From: Cyclonatronum proteinivorum
GTDB lineage: Bacteria > Bacteroidota > Rhodothermia > Balneolales > Cyclonatronaceae
DNA: 64,000 nt
Direction of reading: 5' to 3'
Assembly: GCF_003353065.1 (NCBI RefSeq)
Contig: NZ_CP027806.1
Coordinates: 2,376,501-2,440,500 of the forward strand
Shown here piece by piece: positions 7,849-41,015 of the stretch. Position 1 is the stretch's first letter, and every line of letters starts with the position of its first letter. The notes beneath the pieces were generated by a model. That model worked only from the letters and a program-made list of their open reading frames with translations, made no database searches and was not told where the DNA came from. Both the position numbers and the translations under genes were made by a program.

Positions 7849-9504
7849 TCAGATATAAGATATGTGATGGAACCTGATTTTTTGCAGGGTATCCTCGCTC
7901 AGGTGATTCAAAAAGTCGTCAAGCAATGTATCGCCATACATACTGTAGTAATACGCCCAGCCAACGGTTCGCTCCTGCAACACACCTGACGGAAACAGTG
8001 CTTCTTTGACTTTAAGAATTCGTTTCTGCGCAACTTTTTCTTTTTTCTTTTTCTCCCGCATTACCTTGGCGATAAACTGTTCGGCAGCATTTTCTGCCCT
8101 TTTCAGGCTGCTGTTTAATGAGGTCTCCAGACTGCTGTCCGGTTCCGCGTAGCCTTCAAAAAATTGTCTGTAAAGTTTTTCATGTTCCGCTTTCCATTTT
8201 TCCAATGCCCTCACCGGAGACGCAAGCCCATCCTTAGATAGTGACATTAACACGACTGACTTAAGCAATTCTTCTTCACGTTTTTTATAGGATAAGAGAG
8301 GAAACGGCATGCCAGCCATCGTTTTACAGATGTTTTGCTCAACTACAGTTGTGCTGAATCGCGGCAACAAAACAGGTAAATCAAGTCCAAAACATCTAAA
8401 GAAAGTCTTGAGCTGCCCATGGTATGCAAGCTCAGCGGCACCCCCGGCATAAGCTATATTGGGTAACAGGTATTGCTGCACTACGGGTCTTAGCAATGCA
8501 TTGGGAGACAACCTTGCGAAGAAGGAATCGGGCAGGTTTTGTACTGTTTCTTCGGTAAACAACTCTGATTCATGTCTCCCGGGCAACTTCCACCCTGTTG
8601 CCGAAAACGGGATTTTGATGCGTCCCATTGCGGGATCATGATAGAATAGAAGGCTGTCTGTGACCGCGACCTGCGCTTTCCAGTTTTGAGCAAGTTTGGC
8701 TGATGTAAGTTCCAGCTCATCACGCAATACCACCGGATTCGTCAATACCTTTTCAAAAACCGGTCTGCACAACTGTTTTACTTTAGGATGATTGCTACCG
8801 GCAAGCACGAGACCAAATCTCCCGAAAACCTGCATCATCTGCGCTCCAAAAGCTTTCACCCAGGGTTTTCCGCTTTGCCAGCTGTCATGCAATTTTTCAA
8901 GAGATTCCGCATAAGCTGAGCCCTTGTTGCTTGCTTCCCCGATTTCAGAAAGTAAGCGTTCAGCTTCTTCATTGACTTTTATATCACCAGCTGCAAAAGG
9001 GAGATCACCAAGGCTTCGGAAAGAAAACTTGCGGTTTGATTGGTTTGCCTTGAAATCCGGTAGATATATATGGTTGATTTCATCGTGATCATGATCTTCA
9101 TCTGCAATCCAGAAAACAGGGACAATATTCAGATCGGCCTTTTCTTTCAGGTAACGGCTAAGCGCAATTACCGTGAGTGTTTTATAGAAACTGTAAGCCG
9201 GGCCGCCCAGGAAGCATGCTTGTTGTCCCGTTACAATAGTATAGCTGTTTGGGCTTTGAAGCGATTGAATGGATTCAATGGTAGACTTACCTGCCGTAAA
9301 ACCCTGATTATATTCAAGGAGGAACTGAACCAGATTTTCCCGGCTTACCTTACCGAACCGTTTGGCCGTAAATGATTGAAAAGAAGAATAGTCAAAAGGG
9401 TTTTCCGGGTCGTAGAAGCTTTGCAGTGCTTTCTGACCTTCAACATAATCCGTCAGGAGGGCTGAAGCGCCAAGCTCCCGGTAGCTTACAGCCTCAAACT
9501 CCAA
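7849..9504 (-). CDS. bshC: Putative cysteine ligase BshC (bacillithiol biosynthesis)
   Basis: BshC is thought to add cysteine to glucosaminyl-malate in the last step of bacillithiol synthesis. The 551 residues match the family in length and motifs: an N-terminal LTDYVEGQKALQSFY segment, the nucleotide-binding-like TIVTGQQACFLGGPAYSFYKT, VPVFWIADEDHDHDEIN, and YAGGAAELAYHGQLK, followed by a lysine-rich coiled-coil region (EKKKKEKVAQKR) and a C-terminal tail. It starts 2 bases after the stop of the bifunctional-nuclease gene, so the two are a likely operon. bshA and bshB are not in the window. Confidence 0.94.
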   Translation of the reverse strand: MEFEAVSYRELGASALLTDYVEGQKALQSFYDPENPFDYSSFQSFTAKRFGKVSRENLVQFLLEYNQGFTAGKSTIESIQSLQSPNSYTIVTGQQACFLGGPAYSFYKTLTVIALSRYLKEKADLNIVPVFWIADEDHDHDEINHIYLPDFKANQSNRKFSFRSLGDLPFAAGDIKVNEEAERLLSEIGEASNKGSAYAESLEKLHDSWQSGKPWVKAFGAQMMQVFGRFGLVLAGSNHPKVKQLCRPVFEKVLTNPVVLRDELELTSAKLAQNWKAQVAVTDSLLFYHDPAMGRIKIPFSATGWKLPGRHESELFTEETVQNLPDSFFARLSPNALLRPVVQQYLLPNIAYAGGAAELAYHGQLKTFFRCFGLDLPVLLPRFSTTVVEQNICKTMAGMPFPLLSYKKREEELLKSVVLMSLSKDGLASPVRALEKWKAEHEKLYRQFFEGYAEPDSSLETSLNSSLKRAENAAEQFIAKVMREKKKKEKVAQKRILKVKEALFPSGVLQERTVGWAYYYSMYGDTLLDDFLNHLSEDTLQKIRFHHISYI

Positions 9505-29031: not shown

Positions 29032-31614
29032 ATGTCAGACCGCACCCCAACAGCTTATGATGCTTTACCTATGGCATACGGCCGTTTTTTTATCCGGAAT
29101 GCAGGTTCTGACGTACTTCTTACGCAATCTTACAATAAAGCTTTTGAAAAGCTTTTTGGCCTTGATGAATCCTCAATTACGAAGAACCAGTCGCTTGAAT
29201 CACTGTCAGCCCGTAGAAATATTGACCTTGGTCCGCTCGTAGCATTTATCAGGCGCAATCCTGAAAGAGACATTTCCGAACAGCTTACGTTACATTTCAA
29301 AGCCGAAGAAGGCACAATCATTAATACGTGCACACTTCATGCATGGATTGACACTGAAAATTTTCTGCACGTCTTTTTTCAGGATGAAATATCCCGGTTG
29401 CTACAGCTTTTTGAGGAGCCTCCAAAAGAGGTACCTGTGTCCCCAAAAAATCATGCAGAACATCAGCATTATGACGCGCCCGCAGAAAATCAGCCCTGCA
29501 GCTATATATATGCGGCACCCTTCGGAACTTTTGTGACGGATGAAAAAGGCCGGTACCTCGATGTGAATCCGGCGGCCTGCGAACTCACGGGATATACAGC
29601 CGAAGAACTCCTTCAGATGCGTATCACGGACGTGATTTCAACTGCCAATGCAGATGAAGCACTCGCTTTTCACCGGCAGCTTACGCAAACCGGAAAGCTT
29701 ACAGGCGAGTTTTTACTTCTTCGTAAAAACGGCAGCAGCATTTGGTGTCAGCTTTCGGCCGTCAAATTATCTGAAGACCGTTTCCTGGGTTTTCAGTCCG
29801 ACATTTCCAGACAAAAGCAGGCGGAAACCGAACTCAAGCGTGAACGCCGCATTCTTGCTGAAATCGTAGACGGTACCAAAGCTGGTACCTGGCGCTGGAA
29901 CCTGGAGACCGGTGATTCAATGGTTAATGACCGTTGGGGCAGCATATTAGGCTATGAGTCCGGCGAGATTACTCATCTGACTCTCGATGGCTGGCTTGCC
30001 TTCCTTCACCCTGAAGACACTGAAAGAACGATGAAATCACTCGATAAGGTCATTCAGGGTGAACTTGACATTTATGAGTGCGAAGTCAGAATGAAGCACA
30101 AGCTGGGGCATTGGATATGGATTTATGACCGGGGCTCTGTTACTGAGTTCTCCCCCGACGGAAATCCGCTTATGATTTCAGGGATTCAATTGGATATTAC
30201 GGCACGAAAAGAAGCCAAGCAAAAACTGGAAAAAAGCGAGCGCCGTTTCAGAATACTGTTTGACAATCACACAGCCGTAAAACTGATTATTGACCCTGAT
30301 ACCGGTCAAATAGTAGATGCGAACAAAGCCGCTTCCGCATATTACGGGTGGTCACATGAAGCGCTCACAAACATGCGCATTAACGATATTAATACACTGA
30401 GCGATAAGGACATCAAGTCACAATTGAACAATGCAGCCACGCACTTAGAAAGTAATTATCAGTTCAAACACCGGAAAGCGGATGGAAGCATAAGGGATGT
30501 AGAGGTTTACAGTAGTATTATACAGCTTGAAGATAAGAAGCTGATCCACTCCATTATACACGATAACACAGCTCGTTTTGAAGCTGAGCTGAAGCTGAAA
30601 CGAGAACAAAAGTTTAATGCTGCCCTTCTGGAAAGTGCGCAGGATGGTATTGTAGCCTGCGATGAAAAAGGCAATCTAAAGTTGTTTAACAAAGTCGCGA
30701 GGTCATGGCACCAAAGCGATCCGGACAACTCAGCGTCTGCGGGCTGGAGTAATTCCTATGGCCTTTTTGATGGAGAAGGCAAAAAACAATTAACAGAACA
30801 GGATATTCCGTTGGTAAGGGCCTTTAGGGGCGAACGCTTCATTAGTGTACCCATCACCATCAAAACCAAAGGCTTACCCACACGCCTTGTAGCAGCAAGT
30901 GGTTCTCCGTTCACAGACGAGCATGGTAAAAAATTGGGCGCAGTGGTAATTATGCGGGATGTAACCGAACAAAGACAGCTTGAATCACAAGTTAGCCTTC
31001 AGCTTGCTGCCCTTAAGTCAGCGGCCAACGCCATCGCAATTACCGACCGGGACGGAAATCTTGAGTGGATAAATCCCGCCTGGGAAAAACTCACGGGATA
31101 CGCCGAACAGGAAGTGTTAAGTCAAAACCCGCGAATTCTAAAGTCAGGACAGCAAAAGAAGGAATATTATACCTTACTTTGGGAAACCATCTTAGCGGGA
31201 AAAACCTGGAAAGGAGAAATAGTTAACAGAAGAAAAGACGGCTCACTTTATAATGAGTATCAGACCATTACTCCGCTAAAAAATAAAGAAGGCAAAATCA
31301 CCCACTTTATAGCAATAAAGGAAGATATTACAGCCCAAAAAGAGTTTGAAAAAAAACTACTTGCTCAAAATGAAACGCTGAAACGAATAGCCTGGCATCA
31401 GAGCCATGTTGTGCGGCGTCCGGTTGCAAATATTATGGGCTTAATCGACTTAATTGAAGAAGAAAAAAACATTACTGAAAATCAGCTTTCAGCCATTGAG
31501 TACCTCAAAGAAGAGATTCTAAAGCTTGATGAAATTGTCAGGAAAATTGTGCGTGAGGCAAATCACATTACCAGCGGCAAATTTGATATAGATGTGAAAA
31601 AGAATCACGACTAA
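29032..31614 (+). CDS. Six-PAS sensor protein ending in a DHp-like helix, no ATPase domain
   Basis: An 860-residue cytoplasmic multi-sensor protein without TM segments. I count six PAS-type modules: a divergent one (~8-125), then ~155-270 (TDEKGRYLDVNPAACELTGY), ~280-400 (PAS_3-like, WRWNLETGD...HPEDTE), ~405-525 (RRFRILFDNH), ~530-655 (GIVACDEKGNLKLFN) and ~660-785 (AITDRDGNLEWINPAWEKLTGY). The last ~75 residues form a helical hairpin with IAWHQSHVVRRPVANIMGLI, where His792 sits like an H-box histidine. The protein stops there: no N, G1 or G2 boxes. It is convergent with the adjacent REC-kinase gene (25-base gap). It may be a phosphotransfer or scaffolding partner; that is inference. Confidence 0.85.
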   Translation: MSDRTPTAYDALPMAYGRFFIRNAGSDVLLTQSYNKAFEKLFGLDESSITKNQSLESLSARRNIDLGPLVAFIRRNPERDISEQLTLHFKAEEGTIINTCTLHAWIDTENFLHVFFQDEISRLLQLFEEPPKEVPVSPKNHAEHQHYDAPAENQPCSYIYAAPFGTFVTDEKGRYLDVNPAACELTGYTAEELLQMRITDVISTANADEALAFHRQLTQTGKLTGEFLLLRKNGSSIWCQLSAVKLSEDRFLGFQSDISRQKQAETELKRERRILAEIVDGTKAGTWRWNLETGDSMVNDRWGSILGYESGEITHLTLDGWLAFLHPEDTERTMKSLDKVIQGELDIYECEVRMKHKLGHWIWIYDRGSVTEFSPDGNPLMISGIQLDITARKEAKQKLEKSERRFRILFDNHTAVKLIIDPDTGQIVDANKAASAYYGWSHEALTNMRINDINTLSDKDIKSQLNNAATHLESNYQFKHRKADGSIRDVEVYSSIIQLEDKKLIHSIIHDNTARFEAELKLKREQKFNAALLESAQDGIVACDEKGNLKLFNKVARSWHQSDPDNSASAGWSNSYGLFDGEGKKQLTEQDIPLVRAFRGERFISVPITIKTKGLPTRLVAASGSPFTDEHGKKLGAVVIMRDVTEQRQLESQVSLQLAALKSAANAIAITDRDGNLEWINPAWEKLTGYAEQEVLSQNPRILKSGQQKKEYYTLLWETILAGKTWKGEIVNRRKDGSLYNEYQTITPLKNKEGKITHFIAIKEDITAQKEFEKKLLAQNETLKRIAWHQSHVVRRPVANIMGLIDLIEEEKNITENQLSAIEYLKEEILKLDEIVRKIVREANHITSGKFDIDVKKNHD

Positions 31615-31638
31615 AGTATTATGGCAGCTGTTCAAACA

Positions 31639-32892
31639 TCAAATGGAAAAATAAAAGGTTGTCCCCTGCCCCGGCTTTGAGTCGAACCATATCTGACCAC
31701 CATGCCGGTCAACAATCCTTTTTACAGTACTTAGGCCTACTCCGGTGCCGTCATACTGCGTCTGATCATGCAGACGTATAAAAGGACGGAATAAATTATC
31801 GGCCTTATCCATATCGAATCCCGTACCATTGTCTTTCACAAAGAAAACCGTTTGACCGTCAGATTCTTCATGTCCGATATGAATGTGAGGATTTTCTTTG
31901 TTTTGGCTGTATTTTAGGCTGTTTTCGATCAGGTTGTTCATTAAAACCCGAAACAGCTTGGGGTCTGCATTGATTTTCATACCTTCATCAATAGTAATTT
32001 CACAGTCATGCCTGTACGTCAGGTTGGTGAGGTCAGCTACTATATTCTTAACCATTTCCGTCAGATCAATTTCGTGCGGGCTGATCTCCAGACTTCCCGA
32101 ACGGGAAAAACTCAGGAGGTCATTGATCAGCTGTTGCATGTTTTGGGAAGAGTGCAGAATGGCTTCGAGGAACGGAAAAGCTTCTTTGTCAAGGCTTGTT
32201 GCAAAGTCTTCCATCAGTAGTTCTACAAGCCCTATAATGCCGCTAAGCGGGGAACGCAGATCATGTGAAACGGTGCGGGTGAAAGCTTCAAGCTCCTGAT
32301 TAGCTTCCTTCAAATCTTCGTTGAGTTTCTCAAGTCGCCGCTGCGTATTTATCAGCTCTTCATTACGGCTAATGGCGGCTTCATAAACCGACAACAGTAA
32401 ATCCAGAATCTGTTTTTTATCTGAGTTGATTTCAAACTTCTGGTTTTGAAAAACGATTTCAATGCTCATATCACCTGAGCCCATCCGCCTTACATGCCGG
32501 TTGGCTATCAGGTAAGAAATGCGGGACATCAGGTAGGATTCTTCATAGGGCTTTGTGATAAAATTATCCGCACCCGCCTGTAGTCCCCGGATGATATCCA
32601 TCGGGTCACCCAGTGAGGTTAGTAGAATAAAGGGAACATCTGTTATAGACGGTTCTGATTTAACTTTACTGCAAAACTCATAACCATCCATAACAGGCAT
32701 CATCACGTCACTGATAATGAGCTCAGGCTTTTCCTTCTTTGCCTGCTCCAATGCATCCTGTCCGTTTTTGCAGACAACGGCTTTGATGTTACGGGTATCA
32801 AAAAAACGCTTCAGTTTTTTGGCCTGCACCATAGAATCTTCCGCAAGGAGCACATATCCGTCAGCAAACGTCTGATCAACAAAGTAATTCAT
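31639..32892 (-). CDS. Response regulator-histidine kinase fusion (REC-HisKA-HATPase)
   Basis: A 417-residue cytoplasmic protein. The N-terminal REC domain (14-130) has the acidic pocket LLAEDS, phospho-acceptor Asp62 in ISDVMMPVMDGYEF and the FITKPY lysine. A linker helix (NEELINTQRRLEKLNEDLKE) leads to HisKA with His210 in TVSHDLRSPLSGIIGLVELL. The HATPase domain shows NLIENSLKYS, DNGTGFD and GTGVGLSTVKRI. It starts at ATG 32892, 12 bases after the cheB stop, and is the terminal gene of the che operon: the position that wspR occupies in Wsp. It probably takes phosphoryl groups from the CheA homologue, and its own kinase domain would relay onward. Confidence 0.92.
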   Translation of the reverse strand: MNYFVDQTFADGYVLLAEDSMVQAKKLKRFFDTRNIKAVVCKNGQDALEQAKKEKPELIISDVMMPVMDGYEFCSKVKSEPSITDVPFILLTSLGDPMDIIRGLQAGADNFITKPYEESYLMSRISYLIANRHVRRMGSGDMSIEIVFQNQKFEINSDKKQILDLLLSVYEAAISRNEELINTQRRLEKLNEDLKEANQELEAFTRTVSHDLRSPLSGIIGLVELLMEDFATSLDKEAFPFLEAILHSSQNMQQLINDLLSFSRSGSLEISPHEIDLTEMVKNIVADLTNLTYRHDCEITIDEGMKINADPKLFRVLMNNLIENSLKYSQNKENPHIHIGHEESDGQTVFFVKDNGTGFDMDKADNLFRPFIRLHDQTQYDGTGVGLSTVKRIVDRHGGQIWFDSKPGQGTTFYFSI

Positions 32893-32904
32893 GGGTGACA
32901 ATAT

Positions 32905-33993
32905 TTAAAGTTTTTGTAATTCCAGAATTTTTTGGGCAATGCGTTCAGGCGGGTAAACCATCTGCGCCCCGCCATTTTTTACGGCCGCTCCCGGCATCCC
33001 AAATACGAGACTGCTCGCTTCATCCTGAGCCAGTGTTGTAGCGCCGCAGTTTTTCAGGGCAAGCATTTCTTCTGCGCCATCATCGCCCATACCGGAAAGC
33101 AAAACCGCCACGGTTTGATTTCCGAAAAATGCTTTGGCACTTTTAAACAGCTGACTCACAGATGGCTTGTGTCCTTTATAGGCAGGCTCATCTGTCAAAA
33201 TTAAGTGTGCACTGTTCTTAAAGGACAGATGCTTCCCGCCGGGGGCAAGATAGACGTGCGCAGGCTGAAGCTGCATCCCGTCTTTAGCGAGTACAACCGG
33301 AATCAAAGAATGCGTCTGAAGCCATTCCCTGAAGGTTTCAGAAAAGTTTTCATCAATATGCTGAACAACAACAACCGGAAATTTGAAGGATGAATCAAAT
33401 GAATTTAGTATGATTCGCAGGGCTTCCGGTCCGCCGGCTGACGCGCCGATTACAACGATTCTTTTTTGCGACTGCCAAACAGCTGGCCCTGCCTTTGACG
33501 CTTGAACGTCGTAAGCTCTTTTATCCGAAGCCATCGGCGGCTGCGAACCTTTTGTTCGTCGTCTTACAACCCTGACTTCCGACATATTTTTAAGCATGCG
33601 CAGATAGCGTTCTGAAGATCGCGCGTACTGATCATGGCCCGGACCAAGAGGTTTGGGCATGATGTGTACTGCCCCCGCGGCCATTGCCTGAATGGCCAGC
33701 TCCTTCTGTGTAGCGTCATAGAGGCTGCTTACAATTACGATAGGTACCGGTGCGTGCTGCATAATCAGCCGGGTAGCTTCGATGCCGTCCATATCGGGCA
33801 TCTGAACATCCATGCTCACGACATCAGGTTCCAGATTGCGGATCATCTCTATGGCCGCTTTCCCGTTAGACGCCATCCCGGCAACTTCAAACCTCGGGTC
33901 TGACGCAAGTATGCGTTCATGCAGCCGCCTGCTCGTGAAACTGTCATCTACAATCAGTACCCGAATCCGGGCTGTTGTGCCGCTTGCGCTCAT
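32905..33993 (-). CDS. cheB: Chemotaxis-type protein-glutamate methylesterase
   Basis: Removes methyl groups from receptor glutamates (and deamidates glutamines) when phosphorylated. The 362 residues begin with a REC domain (11-130), phospho-acceptor Asp62 in VSMDVQMPDMDGIEA. A linker follows, then the esterase domain with the catalytic triad Ser185 (IGASAGGPEA), His212 (VVVVQHIDENF) and Asp305 (LSGMGDDGAEEM). Residues match canonical CheB. It lies 5 bases downstream of the CheA homologue and upstream of the REC-kinase gene. Confidence 0.95.
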   Translation of the reverse strand: MSASGTTARIRVLIVDDSFTSRRLHERILASDPRFEVAGMASNGKAAIEMIRNLEPDVVSMDVQMPDMDGIEATRLIMQHAPVPIVIVSSLYDATQKELAIQAMAAGAVHIMPKPLGPGHDQYARSSERYLRMLKNMSEVRVVRRRTKGSQPPMASDKRAYDVQASKAGPAVWQSQKRIVVIGASAGGPEALRIILNSFDSSFKFPVVVVQHIDENFSETFREWLQTHSLIPVVLAKDGMQLQPAHVYLAPGGKHLSFKNSAHLILTDEPAYKGHKPSVSQLFKSAKAFFGNQTVAVLLSGMGDDGAEEMLALKNCGATTLAQDEASSLVFGMPGAAVKNGGAQMVYPPERIAQKILELQKL

Positions 33994-33998
33994 GCTGT

Positions 33999-36491
33999 CT
34001 AAACCAGACGTTTAATGGTATCTATAAGGTTGGTTTCCTGAAAATTGCTTTTTACAATATACGCATTTGCTCCGGCTTGCATACCCCTGTTTCGGTCTTC
34101 CGGTGTTTCCAGGGCCGTTACCACAATCACAGGTAAATCACGCAGGCTTGCCTGTTTACGAATGCGTGAAGTTAGCTCAAATCCGTTCATGCGGGGCATT
34201 TCCACATCGGTAACCACAATATCGAAAGGATGCTGTAACAGCTTTTCAAAAGCATTCTGACCGTCGAATGCCGTTGCTACTTCATACCCGGCCATCTCCA
34301 GATACGTCCGCATCATATTACGAATGGTGATGGAATCATCCACAGCCAGCACCCTGATTTTGCCGGCCGGTTCATCTTCCAGCGCGGCAACCGATCGGGT
34401 ATGATGATGCTTTGATTCCGCGGCTGATGCGATCAGGTCGGATGGTTTAAGTACAGGCACAATGCGACCGTCCCCCAAAAAACAGGCGCCTTCTACATGC
34501 TTTACTTTCCTGAGTAACTTACCCAGCGGCTTTACAATCCCTTCGTGCTCAGCAAGAATAGCATCAACCGTAAAAACAACCTTTTTTCCCTGATGTTCGA
34601 GCAATAAGCCGGTTACCAGATCACCATCGCGGCTGCGCTGTGCACTCCGAAGGCCCAGTACGGAACTAAGCTGCAGCATCGCAATACTTTCCCCGTGTAC
34701 CGTCACAACACGCTTAGATTCTACCGTACTGATTGCAGCGGCTTCCACACGAATAGCCCGCCGGACAGCCTGCGCCGGAATCAGAAAAAGCTGTGTTCCT
34801 GATTCAACGAGAATGCCGTGAAATGTAGCCAGGGTTTGCGGCAGTTTGATCGTAAAACGGATCCCCTTCCCGGTTTCATTTGTAACCGCTATGGTACCGC
34901 CAAGGCTCGTAATTTTTTCAAGTACGATAGCCATTCCTAATCCACGCCCCGAGACATCCGTAATGATTTTGCTTGTTGTGAGACCGGATGCAAAAATAAG
35001 GCGGTTAATTTCGGACGTACTCAGTTTCCCTGCCCCTTCCCGGTTAAGTGCACCGGATTTAATTGCAGACGCGACCACTTTTTTATGATCAATGCCGGCT
35101 CCGTCATCTTCTATCACAATGCTGATTTTGCGGTCATCGCCCTGCGTTACGGCAACCCGCAGGCTGCCTTCATCGGGTTTTCCGGCTTTTCGCCGGACTT
35201 CCGGTGTTTCAATGCCATGATCAATACAGTTCCGGATAAGATGGATCAGAGGATCTTTAAGCTGTTCCAAAATCCGGCGGTCAATTTCAATATCAGCGCC
35301 GTCAAGATGAATGGCTACTTTTTTGCCGGTACTTTTGGAAAGATCGCGCACCAAACGGGGCACGACAGCAAACAACACCGAAAACGGCTGCAGGAGCGTA
35401 TCCCGCACGGCTTCAATCAACTCATCTATATTCCGTCCGGACCTGCGCTGCAGGGCATGCATCTCATCCGCAAGATGTGTTAAGCGGCTGTCCCATATGC
35501 CGAATTCCTGCGATATATCTTTAAGTTCAGCGGCTATTTTTTGCTCAGCCGATTGGGTGTTCGCGGGCAGTACTTCATCAAGTTTACCCCTGAGCCCGGC
35601 AAGCTGCTGTGCCTGATCTGCAAGGGCTTCGGACTGATAACGCAATACATTTTTACTGGTAATCATTTCTTCGGCAAGATTGAGAATACCCAATAAACGG
35701 GCTACCGGCACCCGGATAGTTTCATGCTCAATACCCCCCTGCTTACCGCCTTTTGAAGAAATCTGTCCTACAGCATCACCTTCGTCCGGCATCCCTTTCT
35801 CACCTTCCGTATCTGACCCGTGTGCTATTCGTTCATCGGGTTCCGGCTCCGCCGTTTTGGTTGTTTCTGCATCATCAACAGATCCGGACCTGCTCTCAGC
35901 CGCTTCGCTTCGCGGATTTGGCTCAGAATCTGCAGACGTCTCTTGCGCTTTCGCTGCCGTCTGTGTTTTGTGAATCGGTTGACCTTTTGCATTGCCTTTA
36001 TTTTGATCTGTACGGGTATCTGTTGGTTGCAGCTTCTCCGGTGTTTTTTGTGAGGGGGAAGTTTTTGAGACGGAAGCTTTATGCAGACCTTTAATTTTAC
36101 CGAGCATCAGGTTGAAGGCATTTTGAGAAACCGTTTCCTGGCCTTTGCTACTGCCTGTTTCTTTCACCAGATCCTGAAGCATATCTGCGGCGGGATACAG
36201 CACGTCAAACATGTCTTCGTGCAGCCGGAGCTTATGGTTCTTTATTTCATGAAACACGCCCTCCATAACCATAGCAAGCTGCTCCAGCCTAAGAAGGTTA
36301 ACCGCCCGTGCAGCGCCTTTCATGCTGTGAATGACCCTAAACACCTCCTCAATTTTGGCCCGGTCCCCGCCGTCGCCGACAGATTTCTCCAGGGCCAGCA
36401 AACCGTCGCCTATGGTTTGAAGGTGCTCAGCGGCTTCCAGCTTAAAATCTTCCAGAAGCTCTTTTAAAAAAGCTTCATCTGAGCTGTCCAT
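33999..36491 (-). CDS. cheA: Hybrid chemotaxis histidine kinase CheA-REC
   Basis: An 830-residue kinase from the ATG at 36491 (MDSSDEAFLKEL). Order: HPt P1 (1-110) with His55 in FRVIHSMKGAARA; a ~110-residue low-complexity Thr/Lys/Gln/Glu/Ser linker replacing P2; dimerisation helices (~230-330); HATPase (N-box LIRNCIDHGIETPEVRRKAG, IEDDGAGID, GRGLGMAIV); CheW-like regulatory domain; and a C-terminal REC domain with VLAVDDSITIRN and acceptor Asp in VVTDVEMPRMNG. The fused receiver is typical of WspE and FrzE rather than flagellar CheA. An upstream in-frame start at 36539 would overlap the MCP gene. Confidence 0.95.
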   Translation of the reverse strand: MDSSDEAFLKELLEDFKLEAAEHLQTIGDGLLALEKSVGDGGDRAKIEEVFRVIHSMKGAARAVNLLRLEQLAMVMEGVFHEIKNHKLRLHEDMFDVLYPAADMLQDLVKETGSSKGQETVSQNAFNLMLGKIKGLHKASVSKTSPSQKTPEKLQPTDTRTDQNKGNAKGQPIHKTQTAAKAQETSADSEPNPRSEAAESRSGSVDDAETTKTAEPEPDERIAHGSDTEGEKGMPDEGDAVGQISSKGGKQGGIEHETIRVPVARLLGILNLAEEMITSKNVLRYQSEALADQAQQLAGLRGKLDEVLPANTQSAEQKIAAELKDISQEFGIWDSRLTHLADEMHALQRRSGRNIDELIEAVRDTLLQPFSVLFAVVPRLVRDLSKSTGKKVAIHLDGADIEIDRRILEQLKDPLIHLIRNCIDHGIETPEVRRKAGKPDEGSLRVAVTQGDDRKISIVIEDDGAGIDHKKVVASAIKSGALNREGAGKLSTSEINRLIFASGLTTSKIITDVSGRGLGMAIVLEKITSLGGTIAVTNETGKGIRFTIKLPQTLATFHGILVESGTQLFLIPAQAVRRAIRVEAAAISTVESKRVVTVHGESIAMLQLSSVLGLRSAQRSRDGDLVTGLLLEHQGKKVVFTVDAILAEHEGIVKPLGKLLRKVKHVEGACFLGDGRIVPVLKPSDLIASAAESKHHHTRSVAALEDEPAGKIRVLAVDDSITIRNMMRTYLEMAGYEVATAFDGQNAFEKLLQHPFDIVVTDVEMPRMNGFELTSRIRKQASLRDLPVIVVTALETPEDRNRGMQAGANAYIVKSNFQETNLIDTIKRLV

Positions 36492-36495
36492 AGGA

Positions 36496-37986
36496 TCAGA
36501 GTTTATATTTTTCGATGGTTTGTTCCAGGTTCTGAGCAAGCTCGTTGAGTTCCTGAATGGCCTGCCGCGTCTGATGGCTGCCGGTCACGTTTTGGTCGCT
36601 TGCTACCCTAATGTTTTCCATAGCCGGAGCTATCTGTTCCATACCCGCAAGCTGCTGCTGACTTGACGACGCAATCTGAATGGAAGCATCGAGGGCTTCA
36701 TCAATACTCTCTATGAGCGCTTCCAGTATTTTTCGTTCCTGAAGGACCGTCTGTGTGCCTTCCTCAACCGTGCTTGAACCGGTTCTGATGGCTTCGGCCG
36801 TGTCAGAAACGGACTTCTGAATATCATTGAGGATGGTTTTGATTTGCGCCGCTGATTTTTTGGACTGTTCCGCAAGGCTCTTAATTTCCTGCGCTACTAC
36901 GGAAAAGCCCTTGCCATGCTCGCCCGCTTTGGCAGCTTCGATGGAGGCGTTAACCCCAAGTAAATTCGACTGATCTGCAATGTCAGAAACAGTTGTTGTT
37001 ATTTCTCCGATGGAGCGGTTTTGCTCAGACAGCCGTGTAATGGCTTTTTCTACCACCTTCATCTGCTGATCAATTTTGGCCATGCCATCCACCACAATAC
37101 GGGAAGCTTCAAGGCCTTCATCACCCATTGAAGCCGATTTCTGAGAGGTCTCCTGAAGATTTTGTGCACGGTCACTGGCTACTGAAGCGGTTTGCCTCAC
37201 CTCTTCAACAGTGGATGTTGTTTCAGCGATGGCGGTTGCCGTCTCGGTTGCTCCGGTCGAGATTTCTGTGACTGTTGTTTGAATTTCGGCGGCTGATGTT
37301 CCTAAAACCTGAATGCTTGTTTTAAGCTCAGCCGTGATTCGGCCCATGGTCCGGTACAAGAACCAAACTGAAACAGCGGTTAGGCCGATAAGCACGAATG
37401 CAGCAATAAGCATGGCAAATCCGCTGGCTGCTTTTTGAAGATCGGCCGTTTCCCGTAGTTCTTCACGGCTTTCAAAAATGGCATCCTGCAGCACTAAAAT
37501 GGCGGCATAGACCTGCTCATAGATGCGGAAGTCTTCGTCCTGAAAAGCATCTATTGCAGCACCGGTACCTATTGTAACGGTACGCAGGTGCTGATTGCTT
37601 TGTCTGTATTCGTCGAGCATTGTGTTGAGCAAGGGGATAAGCTGTTCTATCTCATCTGTGGCCGCGATACCATTTTGCGCGCGTGCCCGCAAACTGCGAA
37701 CCGCTACTTCCAGGCGCTCAATCAGCCGCTCGCTCTCGGCCACTTTTTGTTCGCGCTCTGCTGTCGAAACCAAAGCTTCAAACTGAAGGATAAATATGCG
37801 GGAATTCAGGTCTGAAATGCGGCTTGTTTCATCAAAAAGTTCCGTCATCTCATCCAGCTCGTCTGCCAGGTTGCTTAGGGTGCGCAGATTGCTGTTCAGG
37901 TATAGAAAAACCAAAACAAATACGCCAACAAGTAAAGCGCCTGCGGTGATGATTTTTCCGGTGAAAGATAAGTTAGAAGCATTCAT
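36496..37986 (-). CDS. Methyl-accepting chemotaxis protein without HAMP
   Basis: A 496-residue transmembrane receptor. TM1 spans ~12-30, a four-helix-bundle periplasmic region ~31-188 (many Glu/Arg heptads), TM2 ~190-210. The chain then passes after [18 protein letters not shown] directly into the signalling hairpin; no HAMP (with its Pro and DExG) is seen. Methylation helices ([21 protein letters not shown]) flank the conserved tip [24 protein letters not shown]. There is no CheR-binding pentapeptide at the C-terminus (EQTIEKYKL). It sits between cheW and cheA and should be the array's main receptor. Confidence 0.92.
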
Positions 37987-38019
37987 AAGCGATCAATAGA
38001 TAAAGGTTGAAGGATTGGT

Positions 38020-38541
38020 TCAGGCATCCACTATGAGGCGTCGGCTGTTCAGGAGCGCTTCGCCGTCGAGCAATATCGTTTGAGGGCCTGCCATGCCCTT
38101 GATGAATTCAAGTCCGAGCTTACTCAGACTTGCCGGAGGCTCCTGAATTTCATCCTGAAGGATGAATCCGGATTCGAGAATACGGTCACAAAGCAAGCCA
38201 AATTCCATATTATCATTGCGAAGCAACAGAACTTTGTTCATCTCCGTGAGGCCGGCTTCGCGTATCCCCAGAAGTTTTTTCAGATTCACAACCGGAACTA
38301 TAGTGCTGCGATAGTTCATCACGCCCAACACGAATTCGGGCGTACCCGGTATAACCGTGAGATCACGCAGCGAGAACACTTCGTGGACAGAAGCTACAGG
38401 AATAGCGAAAGTTTCCGGATAGAGTAAAAACCGGATCACAGCCAGCTGCTCGCCCCGCTCTTCCTGAGCAAGCGGCACGGAAAATGCCTTCGCCCGCTTT
38501 TTAAGAAGCATTAGTTCCTGTGATACATCCATATACTTCAT
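38020..38541 (-). CDS. cheW: CheW-like coupling protein (second copy)
   Basis: A 173-residue adaptor linking MCP tips to CheA. The CheW fold is seen as AVIRFLLYPETFAIPVASVHEVFSLRDLTVIPGTPEFVLGVMNYRSTIVPVVNLKKLLG (given here as the region at residues ~30-90), with the NYR motif in place of the usual NLRG. The C-terminus EALLNSRRLIVDA resembles regulatory CheW domains. It lies between cheR and the MCP gene, so one copy could serve CheA and the other a distinct receptor pool. Confidence 0.9.
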   Translation of the reverse strand: MKYMDVSQELMLLKKRAKAFSVPLAQEERGEQLAVIRFLLYPETFAIPVASVHEVFSLRDLTVIPGTPEFVLGVMNYRSTIVPVVNLKKLLGIREAGLTEMNKVLLLRNDNMEFGLLCDRILESGFILQDEIQEPPASLSKLGLEFIKGMAGPQTILLDGEALLNSRRLIVDA

Positions 38542-38565
38542 TCAAATAAGTTGGTAAAAATCAAA

Positions 38566-40101
38566 TCAGCCTAATTCCTGCGCAATCATTTGCCGGAGCG
38601 TGCCAACACGCATATCATCTGTGCCCGGAACATGCTCTGTGTCCGCTTTTCCTACAATCAGATCTGATATGCGCTTTAATGACTTGCGGCTCTGAGCCGT
38701 TTTTCCAAGCTTTCGCAGCAAGCTGTGTCGCACAAAAAGTGCACCAATATCATCAGGATTAAGATAAAGCACTTTAACCAGCTGTGCATCTGCTTCTTCT
38801 GTCTTTTCCTGTTCGCTCAGTATGTCCGCTAAAAGCCTGATACTTCCAATATCTTCCGAGTGTTGTTCCAGATAAGCTTTAAGGCGGCTTTCAGCTTCCT
38901 GATAACTGCCGGTATTTGCCAGCGAACGCACAAATAAATTGGTGATTACCGGCGATTGCTGTTGCGCTGCTGGTAACTGCCGCACAGCCGCTATGCAGGC
39001 TTCATAATTCCCCAAGCGGAACTGCCCGCGAACGTGATCTTCGGCATGACTTACGTTCAGCGGAGTTTCCGGCTTTGTTTTCTTTTCCGAAATGTCTTTT
39101 TGAGCATCTGATCGTACCCTTTCCGGCCGCAGACGCGGTCTAACCGGACTTTCGCTTTTGTGATTGGCTTTTGATGTACTTGTATGTTTTACCACACGTG
39201 GCTTCACCGCCTGCGAAGCGGGTTTTGCGGATACAGACAGCGAGACAGGCTTTACATTCATTTTCTGATAAAACAGTCCCGAATGATACTGTACCCGGAC
39301 AAAGCGCGAAAAATAGAATTCATTCAACTCAACCTGACTCGTCACAAACCATCCCTGATCCTTCAAAGCTTCCCAGAAGCGTCCGGCCACTTTTTCAATC
39401 AGATCAGCACTGAAGTACATCATCACATTCCGACAAAAAATCAGATCAAAAGAAGCGGGTGAAGGCACCGCATTGTAAAAATCGTCCGTAACCAGGTTGA
39501 CCTGTCTGAACGTAACCATGCGCTTGATTTCTGGTGAAACAGCCCACCAATCGCCCTTTTGATGAAAAAACTTTTCTTTCAAGTGTGCGGGCGTATCCCT
39601 GAAAGACCACGGCCTGTACACGCCCAGGCGCGCCTTATCGAGCGCTGCGGGATTCAAATCAGTGGCTAAAATGCTGATATCCCAATCGTTAGCATCAGAC
39701 AGGGTTTCTTTCAGCGTAATGGCAATCGAATAAGGCTCTTCCCCTGTGCTGCATCCCGCACTCCAGATCCGCAGCCGCTTTTGGCCTGAAGTTAAACCTC
39801 GCGAAACAGCGGCTATCACCTTGTCCGTTAACAAAGCAAAAGCGGCTTTTTCCCGAAAAAAGTAGGTCTCGCCTACCGTCAGGTTTTTAGTTAAGGCATT
39901 AAATTCAGCCTGTGAAAGCTTTTCCCTGGAAACCCACTGGCTGATTTCAGTCAGATCACTGCTGCGCCTGAGTTCAGTAGCCGCTCTTTTGAGATAGTTT
40001 TCCAGACTTTTCCATTGCTGCGGTTTAAAAGAAAGCCCAAAATGCCGGTGCACATGTGCCGCAAGATCTGCCCTGATTTGCTCATAATCTCCATCTTCCA
40101 C
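38566..40101 (-). CDS. cheR: CheR-type methyltransferase with C-terminal TPR-like repeats
   Basis: An S-adenosylmethionine-dependent receptor methyltransferase. Residues ~1-75 are the N-terminal helical domain, then TVGETYFFREKAAF, the SAM motif RIWSAGCSTGEEPYSIA, TDLNPAALDKARLGVY, and FDLIFCRNVMMYFS are the CheR hallmarks. After ~280 comes a Lys/Ser/Pro-rich linker and ~130 residues of TPR-like helices (AEDHVRGQFRLGNYEACIAAVR, EADAQLVKVLYLNPDDIGALF). The GTG at 40101 is 1 base beyond the cheW stop; a TTG at 40137 would overlap cheW by 35 bases. The TPR tail is what WspC and FrzF-type CheRs carry. Confidence 0.93.
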   Translation of the reverse strand: MEDGDYEQIRADLAAHVHRHFGLSFKPQQWKSLENYLKRAATELRRSSDLTEISQWVSREKLSQAEFNALTKNLTVGETYFFREKAAFALLTDKVIAAVSRGLTSGQKRLRIWSAGCSTGEEPYSIAITLKETLSDANDWDISILATDLNPAALDKARLGVYRPWSFRDTPAHLKEKFFHQKGDWWAVSPEIKRMVTFRQVNLVTDDFYNAVPSPASFDLIFCRNVMMYFSADLIEKVAGRFWEALKDQGWFVTSQVELNEFYFSRFVRVQYHSGLFYQKMNVKPVSLSVSAKPASQAVKPRVVKHTSTSKANHKSESPVRPRLRPERVRSDAQKDISEKKTKPETPLNVSHAEDHVRGQFRLGNYEACIAAVRQLPAAQQQSPVITNLFVRSLANTGSYQEAESRLKAYLEQHSEDIGSIRLLADILSEQEKTEEADAQLVKVLYLNPDDIGALFVRHSLLRKLGKTAQSRKSLKRISDLIVGKADTEHVPGTDDMRVGTLRQMIAQELG

Positions 40102-40102
40102 A

Positions 40103-40609
40103 TCACACCCCCTGCACTTTATCCGTAAGGCCGTCAAGCCATACCATAAGTTTTCGGGTCAAAAGCTGTGACACCCGGTAGGCCAAAATGATTCCATCCT
40201 TGTCACCGAAAACCTGTGCCTGCGTTTCCGATTCCATTTTCTGAACTGCAGATGTCTCATCGGATGAACCAAACTTACCGGGCTTTGTCAGCGATTCAGC
40301 GTCAACGAGACCTTCGGCTTCATCAGCCAACAGTCCAAGCCGGATATCTTCCGTAAGATGTACGATTACAATGACATCATCAGCTTGCAGGGGACGTTTG
40401 TTCAGACCCAGACGGCACCGAAGATTCAAAAGCGGCAAAAGATCCCCGTGAAAATCAAAATACCCTTCTATTTCCGGCGGCGAATCCGGAATGCGCGTTA
40501 CGTAAAGCGCCGGAATAATCTTGGCAACATCCCGAATCGGCACGGCAAAACGCCGGGAATCGGCTTTTAAAACAAAGTAATGTGAAGGAGAGTGGGAATC
40601 AGAACGCAT
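40103..40609 (-). CDS. cheW: CheW-like coupling protein (first copy)
   Basis: A 168-residue CheW-fold protein and the first gene of the operon. The ATG at 40609 (MRSDSHSPSHYFVLKADSRRF) begins at the domain edge; an upstream in-frame start at 40642 adds 11 unconserved residues. The RRFAVPIRDVAKIIPALYVTRIPDSP region is the first beta sheet and IEGYFDFHGDLLPLLNLRCRLGL the second, with DFHG at the usual N(L/Y)RG turn. Acidic residues near its end (LTEDIRLGLLADEAEGLVD) follow the family pattern. Confidence 0.88.
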   Translation of the reverse strand: MRSDSHSPSHYFVLKADSRRFAVPIRDVAKIIPALYVTRIPDSPPEIEGYFDFHGDLLPLLNLRCRLGLNKRPLQADDVIVIVHLTEDIRLGLLADEAEGLVDAESLTKPGKFGSSDETSAVQKMESETQAQVFGDKDGIILAYRVSQLLTRKLMVWLDGLTDKVQGV

Positions 40610-41015
40610 AAGCGGTAAATGGATACAGTCCGTAGTAAGCACAATACAACATCTGCAATCCTTAACTGATTGTCAATTGTTGGATATCAAATAATGTCAA
40701 AATTATAAGATACAACCAAGAATTATGAAAGTGCCTGCGATGTATTCCTTCAATAAACAACGCGACAAGATGTATTTAAAACATTCAGGCTTTACCTTAC
40801 AACAATTCAGTTATTAACGCTTTATGCATACTAAAAATTTGTGCGTATAAGTACTTTTGTAGTTAACTCACAGTCCCGAAAGTTGAGTTAAGTCCCTTTT
40901 TTATGGGGAAGAAAAAACTGTCATCACAAACAGATTACACAACGCTTTGCAGTCGTCAGTTGGGCTTGAAGTTTCCTGCACTTAGTCTCAACAAAAAAGA
41001 ATAGCGCCTTAAAAA
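40610..41015. other. Intergenic region, with inverted repeat at 40863-40891
   Basis: No gene is supported in these 406 bases between the che operon and the toxin gene; the DNA is visibly A+T-rich. An 8-bp inverted repeat, TTAACTCA (40863-40870) with TGAGTTAA (40884-40891), 13-base spacer, is followed by a T6 run 5 bases later on the plus strand. It could be an operator or a weak terminator; no plus-strand gene precedes it. The candidate che promoter also lies here. Confidence 0.45.
40698..40730 (-). promoter_or_regulatory. Candidate promoter of the che operon
   Basis: On the minus strand TAATTTTG (plus 40698-40705) fits the TAnnTTTG -7 element of Bacteroidota-type promoters. A TTTC lies 21 bases upstream near 40727-40730, one mismatch from TTTG. 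The pair is ~90 bases before the first cheW ATG. Spacing and the mismatch make this a weak call. Confidence 0.3.

Follow-up and report, generated by a model that had tools for sequence, protein, structure and literature searches.

A 64,000-nucleotide stretch of Cyclonatronum proteinivorum DNA (the window) encodes a PAS protein that carries a histidine kinase-like tail and has no ATPase domain. The question raised by this locus is whether the tail is an inert remnant of a kinase, a part that works with the kinase encoded next to it, or a module kept for phosphotransfer with other signaling proteins.

Architecture of the PAS Protein

Domain analysis of the 860-aa product demonstrated six stretches matched by TIGR00229 (PAS S-box), and PAS families were also found by Pfam. 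The six DxT-type PAS ends were picked by eye from the sequence, and their limits are approximate. The original prediction of a six-PAS protein that lacks an ATPase domain and ends at a normal TAA was thus borne out. The features of the gene are as follows.

29032–31614, plus strand: PAS(x6)-DHp protein without an ATPase domain (860 aa; ATG start; TAA stop at 31612–31614)
29059–31356, plus strand, outer limits approximate (about residues 10–775): six PAS domains (TIGR00229 and DxT-type ends)
31030–31326, plus strand: last PAS domain (strands in the AF2 model; structure matches to MmoS/NifL)
31330–31461, plus strand: DHp-like helix 1 with the H-box (residues 767–810; AF2 model residues 128–171)
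31405–31407, plus strand: codon of His792, aligned with the HisKA phosphoacceptor His
31477–31572, plus strand: DHp-like helix 2 (residues 816–847; AF2 model residues 177–208)

No Pfam match to HATPase, the ATPase domain of histidine kinases with its N, G1, and G2 boxes, or to Hpt (PF01627) was found in this protein at E ≤ 10. The His of the motif QSHVVRRP is residue 792, and 68 residues remain after it, in agreement with the predicted stop about 70 residues downstream. It is followed by Val793 in place of the acidic neighbor of histidine kinases, and H+4 is Arg. Among the 25 NCBIfam families listed for each, no equivalog scored above its cut-off for this protein or for the REC-kinase (REC-HK) encoded by the convergent gene. 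A frameshifted kinase was ruled out, as the orthologue at locus L020 likewise stops just past the hairpin and the plus strand reaches the convergent gene 24 bases past the stop codon.

The last PAS domain matched 3ewk (E value, 1.1e-34) and 9qq6/2gj3 (E value, approximately 1e-18). Because the closest PAS domains are the flavin-type domains of MmoS and NifL, it may, judging from sequence similarity, bind flavin and sense redox state. The NifL PAS match carries the title FAD-containing.

The Tail Is a DHp-Like Hairpin

The Pfam HisKA family (PF00512) matched residues 791–839 of the window protein, starting from profile position 10 at the H-box. The score was 19.4 bits with the whole protein and 23.7 bits with the tail alone, below the curated cut-off of 26.9. 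Scores above this cut-off were obtained for two paralogues encoded in the same genome (30.2 and 28.7 bits) and for the tail at locus L122 (34.1 bits), and the sub-threshold tail of the window protein is therefore regarded as homologous to HisKA.

An AlphaFold2 (AF2) model covering residues 640–860 (mean pLDDT, 83.9) shows a PAS fold followed by two helices of 44 and 32 residues that are joined by a turn, with 13 residues from the end of helix 2 to the end of the protein. In this predicted two-helix hairpin of the HisKA type, the His lies on helix 1 (model residue 153), and pLDDT values are mostly about 83–90. The top Foldseek matches were LOV/PAS histidine kinase chimeras, aligned over 204–210 columns. 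VIA-align rows cover mainly the PAS domain, and the fold of the hairpin is read from the Foldseek columns together with the sequence profile.

Profile A1, built from eleven tails, matched solved structures with the His aligned: 7n0e_A (E value, 1.1e-5), 7z8n_A (5.2e-5), and ZraS (7.5e-4). The chains 7n0e_A and 7z8n_A carry the title 'Histidine kinase', and we take both to be GacS. The DHp domain of RetS was matched weakly (E value, about 0.45). The DHp resemblance noticed in the original prediction thus held in a profile search as well as in the predicted helix-turn-helix, and these two lines of evidence indicate that the tail is a real DHp-like helical hairpin.

Occurrence of the Tail Family

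The window protein is not a lone truncation. Its genome (4.29 Mb, one contig) encodes nine proteins with the tail and without an ATPase domain. There are 49 HisKA matches at E ≤ 0.1 in this genome, and each of the seven without an HATPase match in its frame comes from the tail family; the other two of the nine tails score under the HisKA threshold.

Two sets of relatives were collected, and all counts given below are among the matches listed by the searches. For the first set, 296 genomes of the phylum were searched with A1. All listed matches of at least about 51.7 bits were fetched, plus one at 50.6, together with 40 of the listed weaker matches, from about 51 bits down, to probe the edge of the family; L118 and L119 were left out as copies of L021 and L020. 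Tails of at least 45 bits were defined as core tails, of which 77 were collected from the strongest matches. The second set was drawn from another class, where 16 regions taken from 60 listed matches yielded 12 tail ORFs of at least 40 bits. Altogether, 129 rows from Bacteroidota-type genomes were obtained, 103 without and 26 with an ATPase domain. Gene calling followed a greedy longest-ORF rule instead of a gene finder. Plasmids were searched as well, with only three Bacteroidota-type records as the outcome.

Among the matches listed, 74 of the 77 core tails have no ATPase domain, the three exceptions being L168, L171, and L175. These 74 proteins end 51–85 residues past the His (median, 62). 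Such a fixed end argues against an inert coiled-coil tail left behind by loss of the ATPase domain, as do the HisKA scores of the two paralogues that lie above the Pfam cut-off; the score of the window protein itself, which falls under that cut-off, is in keeping with such a remnant. As the orthologue in L020 also stops right after the hairpin and, as described below, the His and Arg are invariant across families, the inert tail was rejected as highly improbable.

Conservation around the Histidine

Residue counts among the matches listed demonstrated strict conservation at the H-box. In the ATPase-less tails, the His and the Arg at H+3 are each present in 103/103 rows, with Pro at H+5 in 98/103 and Ser at H−1 in 97/103; in the core rows, the His, Arg (H+3), and Pro (H+5) are each found in 77/77. 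The original prediction held that a His not conserved in relatives would leave only a coiled-coil tail, and the invariant His points the other way. Conservation of the His by itself is no proof of phosphorylation.

The position following the His differs between the two kinds of protein. D, E, or N stands at H+1 in only 30 of the 103 ATPase-less tails, compared to 26/26 of the ATPase-bearing relatives among the matches listed, and also in all 34 other complete kinases that served as controls from the first-set loci. The ATPase-bearing relatives carry mostly Asn at this position (19 N and 7 D), and the acid rule is therefore loose in this lineage. Glu at H+1 is retained in 22 of the 74 core tails. 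Loss of D/E/N beside an invariant His is thus a signature of most ATPase-less tails that is absent from every ATPase-bearing relative in the sample. H+4 was also considered as a clean discriminator but was dropped, since the 34 control kinases vary at this position (17 E, 8 T, 6 S, 2 N, and 1 A).

A tree of the rows was built from 78 columns only, and 60 of its 126 inner branches are open. In this tree, a single branch (support 84/87) sets the 26 ATPase-bearing rows apart from the others, corresponding to one change. This grouping was present in 83% of bootstrap trees, and none of 500 shuffles was as low. Together with the H+1 pattern, it indicates that loss of the ATPase domain and freeing of H+1 coincide while the His stays.

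Studies of CrdS and HK853, according to the excerpted text of PMC3510030, demonstrated that the acid at H+1 is required for kinase activity and not for phosphatase activity, and that T or N at H+4 is required for phosphatase activity and not for kinase activity. Given these roles, the losses at H+1 and H+4 would leave phosphotransfer as the activity least affected. They also bear on the possibility that the tail strips phosphate from receivers, a function that PMC5847659 proposes for HisKA proteins of Archaea lacking HATPase. The H-(D/E)-x-x-(T/N) motif occurs in 0 of the 103 ATPase-less tails, and H+4 is Arg in the window protein, which makes a receiver phosphatase improbable; the ATPase-bearing relatives are also mostly without T or N at H+4 (Ala in 17/26 and T in 1/26).

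Association with Receiver Domains

A REC domain lies in the same ORF as the tail in 22 of the 103 ATPase-less proteins. An N-terminal REC is present in 16 of the 77 core tails, mostly in REC-PAS-tail proteins of approximately 335 aa; L134 and L174 consist of REC and tail in about 220 aa. One ORF without an ATPase domain, L202:4801-8103, has the order PAS(n)-tail-REC, which is the layout of a hybrid kinase minus the kinase engine.

REC genes also adjoin the tail genes. The usual gene order at REC-bearing tails is HK, REC, REC-PAS-tail, REC. In the first set, a directly neighboring, same-strand gene for a single-domain REC accompanies 12 of the 16 REC-bearing tails, with one on both sides in 6 of the 16, compared to 7/58 of the other tails (leaving 51/58 without one) and 7/377 of the background, which leaves out single RECs and genes within three of a tail. 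Similarly, an HK lies no more than two genes away on the same strand for 10/16 REC-bearing tails, 5/58 others, and 8/377 background genes. Fisher p values against this background, which overstate independence because the rows are related, were 4e-15 (tails with their own REC) and 9e-4 (tails without) for the REC neighbor and 1e-11 and 0.02, respectively, for the HK neighbor. In the second set, each of the five REC-PAS-tail genes has a complete HK on its own strand no more than four genes away, and a single REC adjoins three of the five.

The phosphoacceptor Asp is retained in 14 of 16 fused RECs, in 11/11 upstream RECs, and in 7/7 downstream RECs. Asn replaces it in the fused REC of L054, a REC-PAS-tail protein of the genome that contains the window, and of L135 in genome G022; these tails may therefore be uncoupled from REC phosphorylation. 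At another locus of the same genome as the window (L051:3383-13747), a gene for a 1575-aa PAS(n)-GAF-tail protein is followed by overlapping or closely spaced genes for CheB-CheR-PAS, PAS-HK, and a single REC. A set matching in size and domain order occurs at L126 in G022, where another tail gene comes after the REC. At the family level, receiver proteins are the better-supported partners.

The best explanation, to which we give a probability of roughly 0.55, is that the tail is an ATPase-less DHp module kept as a phosphoacceptor and acting as a sensor-gated histidine phosphotransferase or a phosphate sink. It builds directly on the observed architecture, the strict His and Arg conservation, the lost kinase residue at H+1, and the association with REC domains and genes. 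The hairpin would dimerize into a four-helix bundle, and phosphoryl groups would pass between His792 and REC domains that are phosphorylated by other kinases, with a chemistry and direction of flow that we infer; the six PAS domains would gate access to His792. The acceptance of phosphoryl groups anticipated in the original prediction fits the family. A more specific proposal, which we put forward tentatively and at somewhat less than even odds, is a hitherto uncharacterized Bacteroidota-type relay from a complete HK to a single-domain REC, from there to an ATPase-less REC-PAS-DHp or PAS(n)-DHp protein, and finally to another single-domain REC, in which the DHp would serve as a signal-gated histidine phosphotransferase. 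If so, an expanded family, with nine members in the genome of the window protein, would feed cytosolic PAS signals into relays run by other kinases.

The Convergent REC-Kinase Gene and the che Cluster

The window gene faces a che cluster on the minus strand (31639–40642) that comprises CheW, CheR-TPR, CheW, MCP, CheA-REC, CheB, and, as its last gene, REC-HK. The features nearest to the window gene are as follows.

31639–32901, minus strand: REC-HisKA-HATPase gene (420 aa; Pfam Response_reg, HisKA, and HATPase_c), last of the che cluster; candidate partner
32905–33993, minus strand: CheB (REC and methylesterase)
33999–36539, minus strand: CheA with Hpt, HATPase, CheW, and C-terminal REC domains
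36496–37986, minus strand: MCP signaling-domain protein

Pfam confirmed the REC-HisKA-HATPase architecture predicted for the convergent neighbor, and the gap between the two genes is 24 bases (31615–31638), not the 25 originally given. There is no REC gene beside the window gene other than REC-HK. The cluster resembles those of the Wsp type, with the REC-kinase replacing WspR.

With the thresholds used, G022 was the only other one of 59 genomes of the order in which an orthologue of either protein was found; it has both, at 55% identity for the PAS-tail protein and 77% for REC-HK. The convergent order is retained there, with CheB, CheA, and MCP next, so the co-occurrence that the original prediction named as a check was recovered as the same convergent pair. 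CheA is distributed in the same pattern among the genomes of the order, plus a weaker match in G322. Because the two genomes are congeneric and the entire che cluster accompanies the pair, the conserved adjacency counts as one event. Pairing of the window protein with REC-HK is thus possible but weakly supported.

One form that such a pairing could take is a heterodimer between the tail and the DHp of a complete kinase, for example REC-HK, in which the tail blocks or tunes that kinase in the style of RetS and GacS, with the His serving for packing or phosphate removal. Among DHp domains of solved structure, that of GacS is one of the closest to the tail profile (7n0e_A being the best match), and that of RetS is a weak match; the DHp of REC-HK itself scores 19.7 bits with this profile, and its adjacency is conserved in G022. 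GacS and RetS are sensor kinases, and they keep an ATPase-type domain. A pure dimerization module would have no need for a His present in 103/103 tails, and the REC fusions and REC gene neighbors indicate phosphotransfer, which leaves a modulator of this kind unlikely, if still worth consideration.

The second form is a split kinase, in which the ATPase of a separate protein phosphorylates the tail in trans, as in the two-gene relay with REC-HK of the original prediction. What stands of that relay is the adjacency, conserved in one sister genome and hence seen in two genomes; Val at H+1 of the window tail makes its trans-phosphorylation by a partner ATPase less likely. Split kinases do exist: in CheA3/CheA4, the His and the ATPase are on separate proteins and the partner ATPase phosphorylates the His protein, and HisKA proteins without HATPase amount to 3.66% (1,556 of 42,417) of HisKA proteins in SMART, as stated in the excerpt of PMC3591291. 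Unlike these, the tails are mostly unfit at H+1, where the residue is not D, E, or N in 73/103, and this residue disfavors a split kinase as a general explanation. Moreover, 42 of the 53 HATPase matches in the genome of the window protein share a frame with HisKA, and the other 11 seem to offer no obvious set of partners for the nine tails. A split kinase is accordingly regarded as distinctly unlikely.

Relation to Known Systems

HisKA proteins without an ATPase domain are already known, and what is new here is a bacterial variant with predicted partners. In Archaea, 'nonenzymatic HK-like proteins' and REC-(PAS)n-HisKA response regulators have been described, and a phosphoacceptor or phosphotransfer role was suggested for them by Galperin et al. 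(2018; PMC5847659). The same authors state that response regulators of the REC-HisKA class were still unstudied and that their partners were unknown. The tail proteins share with these archaeal proteins the PAS/GAF sensors, the C-terminal HisKA-like domain with its His, the absence of HATPase, and the REC-PAS-HisKA versions, and on architecture alone the window protein qualifies as such a sensor. As far as the sections of PMC5847659 consulted describe the archaeal proteins, the tail family differs in its Bacteroidota-type hosts, recognizable tail, H+1 loss, and HK-REC neighbors.

The tails also resemble Spo0B, ChpT, and PhyT, in which a kinase-like DHp bundle with a conserved His shuttles phosphate between receivers; the PhyT relay runs from an HK through a single-domain REC and PhyT to a REC. 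In these proteins, following the partial texts of PMC3433190 and PMC5898713, the catalytic domain is still attached, being degenerate in PhyT or only weakly similar in ChpT. The tail family, by contrast, has no ATPase domain and carries PAS or REC-PAS modules N-terminal to the DHp.

Among the results listed by a literature search on ATPase-less HisKA relays of Bacteroidota, with subscription papers outside its scope, there was no description of the family, the H+1 signature, or the HK-REC cassettes. HisKA and HATPase are not mentioned in the excerpt of PMC4558063, and that of PMC11210211 concerns complete clostridial kinases. Automatic annotation likely labels such proteins as PAS proteins or kinases and overlooks the relay. 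The tail family is a large and overlooked one that probably passes phosphate between other signaling proteins, and the Bacteroidota-type cassettes name testable partners: the HK, the upstream REC, and the downstream REC.

A second ATPase-less family was observed at 25 Flavobacteriaceae-type loci (L022–L046), with matches mostly at 8001–8200. Its members are approximately 310 aa in length, are apparently membrane-anchored, and end in a C-terminal IAWHQSHVF-x-SHMKNI motif, in which the His is kept and the H-box Arg and Pro are not.
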